DNA of 64,000 nucleotides. Source: Candidatus Streptomyces philanthi (GTDB lineage: Bacteria > Actinomycetota > Actinomycetes > Streptomycetales > Streptomycetaceae). The stretch covers positions 5,811,501 through 5,875,500 of the forward strand of contig CP073042.1 of NCBI GenBank assembly GCA_018114805.1. The letters run 5' to 3'. Shown piece by piece: positions 52,810 to 57,834 of this stretch. A model generated the notes under the pieces. That model ran no database searches. It was not told the origin of the DNA and saw only the letters and a program-made list of their open reading frames with translations. Each line of letters starts with the position of its first letter. Positions within the stretch are counted from its first letter, which is position 1. The position numbers and the translations under genes are program-made.

Positions 52810-54434
<1,625 letters not shown>

Positions 54435-54622: not shown

Positions 54623-55469
54623 ATGCAGCACGCAGTGGGAGTTCCGCTGCCCCCGTCCCACGGCCAGGGGCAGGGTGCGGCGGGCGCCGCCCAGCACTCG
54701 GGCCACCCGCGCCACCCGGGTCGCCGCCCGTGGCCGGCGGCCCCATCCGACGCCGGCCCGCGCCGACGCCCGGCTGGCCCGGGAGCCCCCCGCGCCGGCA
54801 CCCCGCCGCACCCGGCGACCGACGGCACCACCGGACCGGTGACGCTGCCCCCGGGCGCCCCTGTACCGCTGCCCGACGCGCCGCGGGATCAGCCCGTGAT
54901 CGACGCGTCCCGCACCGCGGTGGCCGTACTGCTCATCGGGCCGGCCGGTGCGGGCAAGACCACCGTGGCCCGGCTGTGGGCGGACAGCCGGCGGGTGCCC
55001 ACCGCGCACATCAGCCTCGACGACGTGCGCGAGTGGGTCAGGTCGGGCTTCGCCAACCCGCAGCCCGGTTGGAACGAGAACTCCGAGGCGCAGTACCGGC
55101 TCGCCCGCCGCACCTGCGGCTTCGCCGCCCGCAACTTCCTGGCCGACGGCATCTCCTGCATCCTGGACGGCGCCGTCTTCCCCGACCGCCCGGTCGTGGG
55201 CCTCGGCGGCTGGAAGCGGCACCGTCGGCCCCGGGCTGCTGCCCGTGGCGCTCCTGCCGGGCCTCGAGGTCGTCCTGGAGCGCAACGCGGCCCGCTCGGG
55301 CAACCGCAGGCTCAGCGACGAGGAGGTCGCCCGCATCCACGGCCGGATGGCCGGCTGGTACGGGTCGGGGCTGCCGATCATCGACAACTCGCAGTACGAC
55401 GTGGCCCAGACCGCCCAGATGCTGGACGAGGCCGTCGCGCGCAGCATCGCGAGCCCGCCGTCCTGGTAG
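54623..55469 (+). pseudogene. P-loop ATPase/kinase-like protein, frameshifted
   Basis: From ATG 54623 the frame encodes about 90 disordered Pro/Ala/His residues, then Walker A (LLIGPAGAGKTTVARLW), SLDDVREWVRSGFANPQPGW and CILDGAVFPDRPVVGLGGWKRH. At about 55222 the frame shifts. The natural continuation VGPGLLPVALLPGLEVVLERN, then RIHGRMAGWYGSGLPIIDNSQ, ends at 55469 in another frame, whereas the original frame continues as unrelated sequence to 55669. One extra C in CACC explains it. Intact copies occur here in streptomycetes; the substrate is unknown. Confidence 0.75.
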
Positions 55470-55666
55470 TCGCCGGGCCCGACCGGCGGAACCTTTCCGC
55501 TGGTCGAGCCCGGGGCCGGCCGTGGTGCGCTTGCCCCGTGAGCGGCCCGGCGCCGGCGCCCGTCCGCGTCCCCCGCCCCTCGCGCGTGGGCCTGGGTCGC
55601 ACCCGCCGCGGATGCCGGTCGTCCCTACTCGGACGTGCCCGACCGGCCGGGTGCGCGCGGCACCCC

Positions 55667-55672
55667 TAGGCT
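55667..55672 (+). promoter_or_regulatory. -10 box of a leaderless transcript
   Basis: TAGGCT followed by 7 nt and ATG 55680. Confidence 0.5.
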
Positions 55673-55679
55673 CGGAGAC

Positions 55680-56786
55680 ATGTCCGAGGTCTTCGCGACG
55701 CGACGTACCCGACTGCGCGAGCGGTGCGCGGCCGTCGGGAACGCGGCAGCGCTCGTGTCCCGACCGGCCAACGTCCGCTACCTGTGCGGCGAGACGCGGC
55801 CCGGGGCCGTACTGCTGCTCGGGCCGACGGAGGACGTGTTGCTGCGCTCCGCGGCCCGGGCGGCCGAGCCCGCCGCTGGCCGGCCCGAGGACGACCTCCC
55901 GGTGCGGGAGCTGACCGAGCCGCACGGCGACCCGGCCGTCGCCGCGGCCGATCTCGCCGCCGCCGCTGGTGCCGCGCGGCTGGCCGTCGACGAGCACCAC
56001 CTCACCGTGGACCGGCACCGCGCCCTGCGCTCGGCCGCCCCCCGGCTCGACCTCGCCGACCTCGGCTGCGCCGTCGAACAGCAGCTGATCGTCAAGGACG
56101 ACGACGAGATCGCCGCCCTGCGCATCGCCGCCGAGATCGCCGACCAGGCGCTGGGCGAACTCCTCGAGTCGATCCTGGTGGGCCGCACCGAGCGGCACCT
56201 CGCACTGGAACTGGAGCGCCGCCTGGTGGACCACGGCGCCGACGGCCCGACGTTCGCCACCTCCGTCGGCACCGGCCCGCACTCGGGCCGTCTCGGCCAC
56301 CTGCCCACCGACCGCCGCGTCGAGGAGGGCGACTTCCTCACCGTCTGCCTGGCTGCCAGCTACCGCGGCTACCGCTGCGAGGTGGGGCGGACCTTCGTCA
56401 TCGGGACCTCGCCGGCCGACTGGCAGATCGAACTGTACGATGTGGTCTTCGCCGCCCAGCGGGCCGGTCGGGAGGCGCTGGCGCCGGGCACGGCCTACCG
56501 CGAGGTAGATCGTGCGAGTCGGCAGGTGCTGGCCGCCGCGGGGTGCGATGGGACGCTCGGGGACCGCGTCGGGCACGGGCTGGGCCTGGAAAACGACGAG
56601 GACCCTCGGCTGGCGCCGGAAGCCATGGGTAAACTGGACGCTCGTGTGCCGGTCACCGTCGAACCGGGGGTCCACCTCCCGGGGCGGGGCGGCGTCCGGA
56701 TAGATGACACACTCGTCGTTCGCCCCGAGGTGGACGGCGGCCCCGAGCTACTCACCATCACGACCAAGGAGCTGCTCGCGCTCTAG
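55680..56786 (+). CDS. M24 (Xaa-Pro aminopeptidase-like) protein with altered metal site
   Basis: A 368-aa pita-bread-fold protein with an N-terminal creatinase-like domain ([15 protein letters not shown]). The five expected metal ligands of aminopeptidase P are partly replaced. Alignment around YRGY puts Cys where the first Asp should be ([11 protein letters not shown]) and Glu for the second (CEVGRTF). The His in GHGLGLE and the first Glu in TVEPGVHL remain, and the last Glu is Asp (VRIDDTLVV). It may be inactive as a peptidase or use another metal. It sits directly before efp with a 47-bp gap. The leaderless -10 supports ATG 55680. Confidence 0.85.
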
Positions 56787-56833
56787 CGCGCACCCCTGGT
56801 TCCACCAGTTTCAGTCCAGGAGATTCCGCAACC

Positions 56834-57400
56834 GTGGCATCCACGAACGACCTCAAGAACGGCCTGGTGCTCAAGCTCGACGGGGGCCAGCTCTGGTCCG
56901 TCGTCGAGTTCCAGCACGTCAAGCCCGGTAAGGGCCCTGCCTTCGTCCGCACCAAGCTGAAGCACGTGCTGTCCGGCAAGGTCGTCGACAAGACCTTCAA
57001 CGCCGGCGTGAAGGTCGAGACGGCGAATGTCGACAAGCGCGGCATGCAGTTCTCGTACAAGGACGGCAACGACTTCGTGTTCATGGACACGGAGACGTTC
57101 GACCAGATCAACGTGACGCCCGAGACCGTCGGCGACGCGGCCAACTACCTGCTCGAGGGCAACGAGGTCGTCGTCGCCATGTACGAGGGCGCCGTCCTCT
57201 ACATCGAGCTGCCGGCCTCCGTCGAGCTGGTCATCGAGTACACCGAGCCCGGCGTCCAGGGCGACCGCTCCACCGGTGGCTCCAAGCCCGCCCGCCTTGA
57301 GACCGGCTACGAGATCCAGGTCCCGCTCTTCATCACCACCGGTGAGAAGATCAAGGTCGACACCCGCTCCGGTGAGTACCTCGGTCGGGTGAATAGCTAA
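56834..57400 (+). CDS. efp: translation elongation factor P
   Basis: A 188-aa three-domain EF-P that relieves ribosome stalling at polyproline. The tip loop is KPGKGPA with Lys 34 or so, the palindromic PGKGP form reported for actinobacterial EF-P that works unmodified; no EpmA/EpmB-type gene is seen here. The C-terminal signature [16 protein letters not shown] is intact. GTG start. Confidence 0.97.
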
Positions 57401-57402
57401 CC

Positions 57403-57834
57403 GTGGCTGCCCGCAACAAGGCCCGCAAGCGTGCCTTCCAGATCCTCTTCGAGGCCGATCAGCGCGGTACCGCCGTGCCGACCGTGCTCGCGGACTGGAT
57501 CAGGCACTCGCGGTCCGACGACCGGCAGCCGCCGGTCAACGAGTACACGATGCAGCTCACCGGGGGGTACGCCGACCACGCGGACCGCATCGACGAGCTG
57601 ATCGCCACCTACGCGGTCGGCTGGTCCCTGGACCGGATGCCGGTCGTCGACCGGAACATCCTGCGGCTCGGCGCCTACGAGCTGATCTGGGAGGACGAGA
57701 CGCCGGACGCGGTGGTGATCGACGAGGCGGTGCAGCTCGCCAAGGAGTTCTCCACGGAGGACTCCCCGGCGTTCGTCAACGGCCTGCTGGGGCGGCTCAA
57801 GGAGCTCAAGCCCAGCCTGCGCCGCGAAGGCTGA
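57403..57834 (+). CDS. nusB: transcription antitermination factor NusB
   Basis: A 143-aa all-helical protein. ARNKARKRAFQILFEADQRG is the N-terminal RNA-binding arm, MPVVDRNILRLGAYELIW the conserved core, and FVNGLLGRLK the C-terminus. It starts 2 nt after efp. It assists rRNA operon antitermination with NusE. Confidence 0.96.
   Translation: MAARNKARKRAFQILFEADQRGTAVPTVLADWIRHSRSDDRQPPVNEYTMQLTGGYADHADRIDELIATYAVGWSLDRMPVVDRNILRLGAYELIWEDETPDAVVIDEAVQLAKEFSTEDSPAFVNGLLGRLKELKPSLRREG

Follow-up and report, generated by a model that had tools for sequence, protein, structure and literature searches.

A probable pseudo-peptidase of the M24 family adjoining efp in Streptomyces and related genera

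The gene located directly upstream of efp in the window (the whole stretch of 64,000 nucleotides from Candidatus Streptomyces philanthi that was analysed) raises the question of what a protein with a peptidase fold is kept for when the residues that should hold its metals have been replaced. The preliminary description of this DNA had left two answers side by side, a different reaction at a changed metal centre or a binding protein, possibly linked to proline-rich translation. The comparison of orthologous sequences described below makes it probable that the product is a PepQ-type pseudo-peptidase, which lost catalysis once and has been kept for a non-catalytic role.

The assignment of the protein to the family presented no difficulties. 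Both M24B domains, PF00557 (8.9e-47) and PF01321 (Creatinase_N, 3.9e-13), were found above their cut-offs, and the solved structures closest in sequence are archaeal and bacterial prolidases (1e-39). The NCBIfam equivalog cut-offs for PepQ and related peptidases were not reached, the best score being 147.2 against 630 bits when the window protein alone was scored. The genome itself carries six M24 genes, namely the one considered here, one canonical-looking PepP, three methionine aminopeptidase-like genes and one divergent gene (named by eye); this sixth M24-like gene (L158, C1:3260151-3260870) appears, also by eye, to be devoid of the usual GHG metal motif.

The active-site positions are designated according to what we take to be the E. 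coli PepP numbering, with which the PDB titles (His350Ala, Asp271Ala, Glu383Ala) agree. In the alignment to solved prolidases, the five metal ligands Asp/Asp/His/Glu/Glu read Cys/Glu/His/Glu/Asp in the window protein, the active-site histidines 243, 350 and 361 read Gly, Asp and Asp, and R340 corresponds to the Arg404 site. The three ligand replacements that had been claimed earlier (Asp to Cys at C223, Asp to Glu at E234 and Glu to Asp at D342) were thus recovered, with neither Asp260 nor Asp271 restored by the alignment, and the claimed persistence of the fold and of the remaining ligands, His299 and Glu328, was borne out as well. The loss goes beyond that claim, as His243, His350, His361 and the S1' tyrosine are also replaced (Table 1). 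The available passages on P. aeruginosa PepP agree with the same numbering, give His354, Asp271, Glu384 and Glu408 as the ligands of metal site A, and report that alanine at His243 or Glu384 abolishes activity (PMC5723419).

Table 1 Features of the M24–efp locus, in window coordinates
Feature	Position	Strand	Basis
aroQ-like gene, upstream	53988..54434	+	named by eye
P-loop (AAA_33) gene with Pro-rich N-terminus, between aroQ and M24	54623..55469	+	start inferred from conserved Met
M24B (PepQ-like) gene, 368 aa, probable pseudo-peptidase	55680..56786	+	ORF list, domains, relatives
Codon 206, Gly replacing His243	56295..56297	+	alignment to solved relatives, orthologs
Codon 223, Cys replacing metal ligand Asp260	56346..56348	+	alignment to solved relatives, orthologs
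Codon 234, Glu replacing bridging metal ligand Asp271	56379..56381	+	alignment to solved relatives, orthologs
Codon 295, Asp replacing His350	56562..56564	+	alignment to solved relatives, orthologs
Codon 299, metal ligand His354 kept	56574..56576	+	alignment to solved relatives, orthologs
Codon 306, Asp replacing His361	56595..56597	+	alignment to solved relatives, orthologs
Codons 313-368, lowered synonymous variation	56616..56783	+	0.50 vs 0.78 on the Streptomyces side (128 sequences), p 2.9e-8
Core GGTAAACTGGACGCT, 206 bp upstream of efp start; GACGC at 56637-56641	56628..56642	+	synonymous constraint
Codon 328, metal ligand Glu383 kept	56661..56663	+	alignment to solved relatives, orthologs
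Codon 332, His replacing S1' tyrosine (Tyr388, P. aeruginosa PepP)	56673..56675	+	orthologs; role from the available passages of PMC5723419
Codon 342, Asp replacing bridging metal ligand Glu406	56703..56705	+	alignment to solved relatives, orthologs
efp, elongation factor P, directly downstream	56834..57400	+	ORF list; adjacency in relatives
nusB-like gene, downstream of efp	57403..57834	+	named by eye

The ortholog set comprised 211 sequences fetched from searches of the genus, family, order and class, i.e. 46 canonical and 165 degenerate orthologs with fetched loci; the search matches overall were more numerous, and some of the unfetched ones are partial (e.g. G507, G499 and G538). Two broken copies, L113 (G378) and L130 (G371, a genome that is 76% complete and in which the efp match is split too), were excluded from column counts and dN/dS, which left 163 degenerate sequences, while the partial L214 (266 aa) was excluded from dN/dS and codon counts and retained in site counts. 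One further copy, L114 (G323), has an unusually long open frame of 444 aa.

All nine active-site positions are canonical (HDDHHHERE) in 45 of the 46 canonical sequences, the exception having Thr at His350, and in none of the 163 degenerate ones. By origin, the canonical sequences were 39/39 from outside the family and 7/7 from the family genera g91 and g94 (bar the one Thr at His350); the degenerate form was present in 15 of the 17 family genera sampled, the window genus included. Asp260 and Asp271 were lost in every degenerate sequence, His243 in 158 (kept in 5), His361 in 160 (kept in 3) and His350 in 149, and Arg340 was retained in 163/163. The degenerate sequences fall into two subclades, a Streptomyces side of 129 and another of 34, to which all 14 keepers of His350 belong. 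Replacements of the lost ligands vary from genus to genus; residue 223 may be Cys, Arg, Gly, Asn, Ala or Ser, so that the Asp to Cys change holds for the window protein but is no fixed trait, Cys being found in 96/129 sequences of the Streptomyces side and 0/34 of the other subclade. In the latter, positions 234, 328 and 342 are mostly Ser, Gly and Glu, and the commonest set is Ser/His/Gly/Glu (21/34). Additionally, 68 named loci (alignment A2) fit the Streptomyces-side pattern; the named matches were at 74–85% identity.

That the protein is simply an active Xaa-Pro peptidase in which the substitutions are tolerated, as the assignment of family and fold to the prolidases would suggest, is extremely improbable in the light of these counts, because three metal ligands and three histidines are altered together, and in many ways across the clade, whereas in the available passages on PepP single alanine changes abolish activity (PMC5723419). 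The protein is very likely dead as an Xaa-Pro peptidase, as far as its residues tell. A second alternative, confined to the Streptomyces side, is a one-metal protein or enzyme, in which Glu234/His299/Glu328/Asp342 would rebuild site A with swapped side-chain lengths and serve a new reaction or sensing. These four residues occur together in 106/129 sequences, they stand at positions of the site A described for PepP, and the fully retained Arg340 also fits this explanation. Glu234 is, however, replaced by Gln or Arg in 16/129, none of the three histidines is present in 125/129, residue 223 varies, and the other subclade has its different set at 234, 328 and 342; we regard a one-metal protein as unlikely. 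Note that the occurrence of the four-residue set in 106/129 sequences is more than a wholly free site would show and, to that extent, weighs against a pseudo-peptidase.

The trees were built from 94 of the 211 sequences. In the first of them, all 50 degenerate sequences were located on one side of one branch, with the canonical genera g91 and g94 as the nearest sisters of the degenerate clade (support 94, quick method). In a more careful tree with the active-site columns blanked, the support of the degenerate clade was 100/100, and the clade was present in all 200 bootstrap trees. By this phylogenetic evidence, the active-site loss arose once.

A full M24 ortholog was missing from five genomes (G516, G050, G079, G112 and G340), and this was taken as an assembly gap rather than a loss because the efp match was absent from them too. 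In four genomes of family f42 (L161–L164: G447, G451, G454 and G452), efp was present and no M24 gene was found in the fetched 3.0–3.6 kb; it was either lost or moved elsewhere. Viral contigs, scanned to widen the diversity of M24 relatives, yielded none.

The pattern of conservation tells what was lost and what was kept. Of the 82 columns that are at least 95% conserved in canonical sequences, 64 were kept and 18 were lost in at least one subclade, the latter including 7 of the 9 catalytic ones (Fisher p 2.3e-4); on this alignment, the column loss is targeted at catalytic sites. The median pairwise dN/dS was 0.235 for the Streptomyces side (5583 pairs), 0.25 for the other subclade (199 pairs) and 0.166 for canonical sequences (only 21 pairs), values that were used only as signs of constraint because the Nei-Gojobori method is simple, the pairs are non-independent and GC-rich codons saturate. 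For codons 1-300, the medians were 0.244, 0.268 and 0.144, respectively, and for codons 131-300 on the Streptomyces side the median was 0.148. The frame is free of stops over at least 340 aa in 162 of the 165 fetched degenerate sequences. These are signs of purifying selection on the degenerate gene, apparently weaker than in its canonical relatives. At the nine catalytic codons, pN/pS was 0.334 vs 0.336 for codons 1-300 on the Streptomyces side and 0.714 vs 0.372 in the other subclade, and canonical pairs showed zero nonsynonymous changes. The dN/dS above that of canonical pairs, with a median of up to 0.369 in genus g92, and the His350 still present in 14/34 sequences of the other subclade weigh against a kept pseudo-peptidase.

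Of the two answers initially left open, a different reaction at an altered metal centre has lost ground, because the ligands vary by genus, the histidines are lost and the catalytic codons evolve at the gene average or faster. The binding protein is favoured: since the catalytic machinery was lost while the protein was kept, a binding rather than a cutting role is probable, and the protein is likely kept as a binding protein. Small prolidases are dimers. In our reading, the two-metal centre and the active-site histidines disappeared a single time, on the stem of 15/17 sampled family genera, which would leave a protein without Xaa-Pro hydrolysis that works as a folded binding protein, probably as a dimer. 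An AlphaFold model, for which 69 sequences served as input (that of the window and those from 68 named loci out of 80), had a pLDDT of 64.3, with residues 293-368 below 50, and a fold search with it placed prolidases first at TM-scores of ~0.5 and rmsd of 6-12; with such values, no inference about the pocket was drawn from the model.

The 3' end of the gene may have been conserved for another reason as well. The lowered synonymous variation of codons 313-368 (Table 1) was also seen in the other subclade (0.62 vs 0.74 for the rest, p 0.036), and the canonical sequences showed no significant difference (0.94 vs 0.84). Among sequences with the residue in question, rare codons are practically fixed in this part: GGT317 and CTA357 in 100% and GCT321 in 99%, against 12%, 3% and 4% gene-wide, respectively. 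A relaxed form of the core was found 203-291 bp upstream in 221 of the 253 efp starts found, the misses shown being mostly canonical and some from the Streptomyces side. In S. exfoliatus and S. zaomyceticus, which we take to be kin of S. venezuelae, the core element is located 207 and 208 bp upstream of efp, respectively. According to the available passages on S. venezuelae, a WhiA ChIP-seq peak lies 191 bp upstream of efp, efp is downregulated in the whiA mutant, and the WhiA motif is GACAC, with GACGC occurring in both treZ footprints (the importance of its bases being untested in that paper, as far as these passages go) (PMC3781837). The control of efp may overlap the coding 3' end of the M24 gene. 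A promoter scan of 55400-57000 found no sigma-70-like site. The reading of TAAACT in the conserved core as a -10 box was dropped because there is no -35. Two more parts of the gene, codons 131-158 (56070-56153) and 229-256 (56364-56447), also vary less at synonymous positions on the Streptomyces side (0.52-0.62).

With this constraint and the WhiA peak, another explanation comes into consideration, namely a protein of little function encoded by a slowly decaying relic, which persists partly on account of the efp regulatory DNA (a WhiA site or promoter) in its 3' end. The elevated dN/dS, highest in g92, would suit such a relic. The medians of 0.244 for codons 1-300 and 0.148 for codons 131-300 on the Streptomyces side argue against it, as do the frames open over at least 340 aa in nearly all copies, and we find it rather improbable.

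Turning from the gene to its neighbours, efp lies downstream in the same orientation, at a distance of no more than 400 bp, in 108/108 degenerate loci with room (57 had no room), 80/80 named loci with room and 42/43 canonical loci with room, the remaining one having a gap of ~650 bp. The adjacency to efp is confirmed, and it is older than the active-site change because canonical orthologs adjoin efp too. The EF-P tip loop is PGKGPAF or PGKGGAF in both the degenerate-clade and the canonical groups; residue 110 of EF-P (window numbering) is Phe in 177/189 degenerate-clade copies and in <10% outside. In Saccharopolyspora erythraea, the available part of the source gives the order pepQ-efp-nusB, with bldD beyond (PMC3359211), and in that of another source efp is near bldD in a pyr/bldD/efp block (PMC13118837). 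The adjacency to a translation-factor gene would suit a ribosome-associated M24 pseudoenzyme, placed near nascent chains beside EF-P by analogy with eukaryotic EBP1, which, in the passages available, keeps 2/5 metal ligands and binds the ribosomal tunnel exit (PMC11266112). The window protein does not, however, specifically resemble the EBP1 model (TIGR00495, 18.5 bits vs a cut-off of 430), and we regard such a function as very improbable.

The second neighbour, the P-loop gene, was counted by tblastn in loci with 1.2 kb or more of sequence on the upstream side. It was located upstream of the M24 gene in 89/89 Streptomyces-side, 68/68 named and 10/13 other-subclade loci, and in 0/41 canonical loci. 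The three exceptions are from genus g103, the genomes of which still carry the P-loop gene (8/8), in seven of them some 3-16 kb upstream on the contig of the M24 gene and in G322 on another contig. When entire genomes were searched, the canonical sister genera gave no match (0/7), nor did the six genomes from the class; the seven from the order gave two weak ones (E ~1e-4 to 1e-3). Within this sampling, the gain of the P-loop gene and the active-site loss fall on the same branch, which counts as a single coincidence. For the M24 protein, the partial distance correlation was 0.319 with the P-loop protein, 0.298 with nusB and 0.438 with efp; the value for the M24/P-loop pair, about that of nusB and below that of efp, indicates no specific co-evolution.

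The AAA_33 match of the P-loop gene was measured on the relative L308; an NCBIfam Pro-rich N-terminal domain was matched as well. In the 106 of 191 copies delimited by the shared start motif, the residues upstream of Walker A have a median proline content of 32%, and PPP is present in 100/106; in genera g92 and g93 (copies shown), the N-termini are shorter and less Pro-rich. In its core, the P-loop protein shows nearly the same degree of conservation as EF-P (mean distances of 0.109 and 0.107, respectively, 177 loci). In this assembly, its frame is broken by one base near 55222, either a strain change or a sequencing error, and it is open in the near relative G031 (L307).

The link of the M24 protein to proline-rich translation that the preliminary description had suggested remains a conjecture, with one new hint, the Pro-rich P-loop gene in the same clade. 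If the pseudo-peptidase is a binding protein, we would guess that its partner contains proline, and the Pro-rich N-terminus of the P-loop neighbour would be the best candidate on genomic grounds. A more elaborate and quite improbable extension is a three-gene proline module, in which a dead prolidase pocket would read the N-terminus of the Pro-rich P-loop NTPase, so that the capacity of EF-P would be sensed and passed on in sporulation; the polyproline-bearing NTPase itself should need EF-P for good translation, and EF-P would be tied to development via WhiA.

As for known systems, the bacterial and archaeal small M24B prolidases (e.g. 1wy2 and 1pv9) have both domains and most of the conserved fold columns in common with the window protein, which differs from them in the replacement of three metal ligands and three active-site histidines and in its scores far below the NCBIfam equivalog cut-offs. 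The gene order in B. subtilis is presumably aroQ-yqhT-efp. In the available passages, YqhT (PapA) is named an Xaa-Pro peptidase, the deletion of which delays entry into sporulation (PMC4703394), and a further source regards it as a peptidase too (PMC4993169); the gene order before efp is common to the window gene and the prolidase-type pepQ (PMC3359211, as far as available). No paper calling this efp-adjacent M24 protein inactive or a pseudoenzyme was found in the open-licence literature searched. Family models count the gene among those of peptidases, and it is common to the sampled genomes of a large, much-studied genus; its product is very probably no peptidase. According to the parts of the sources available, EBP1 likewise lost its catalytic residues with the family fold and the protein kept (PMC11266112), and the same holds for two more eukaryotic pseudoenzymes related to M24 or aminopeptidase P, namely Leishmania PA2G4 and PID-5 (PMC3888471, PMC10377022). 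EBP1 and PA2G4 are MetAP-like, whereas the window protein is PepQ-like, bacterial and common to 15 sampled genera; it would provide a bacterial case, of one origin, of the conversion of an enzyme into a pseudoenzyme, to which canonical sisters within the family can be compared; the gene adjoins efp and, by the available passages, is near bldD (PMC13118837).
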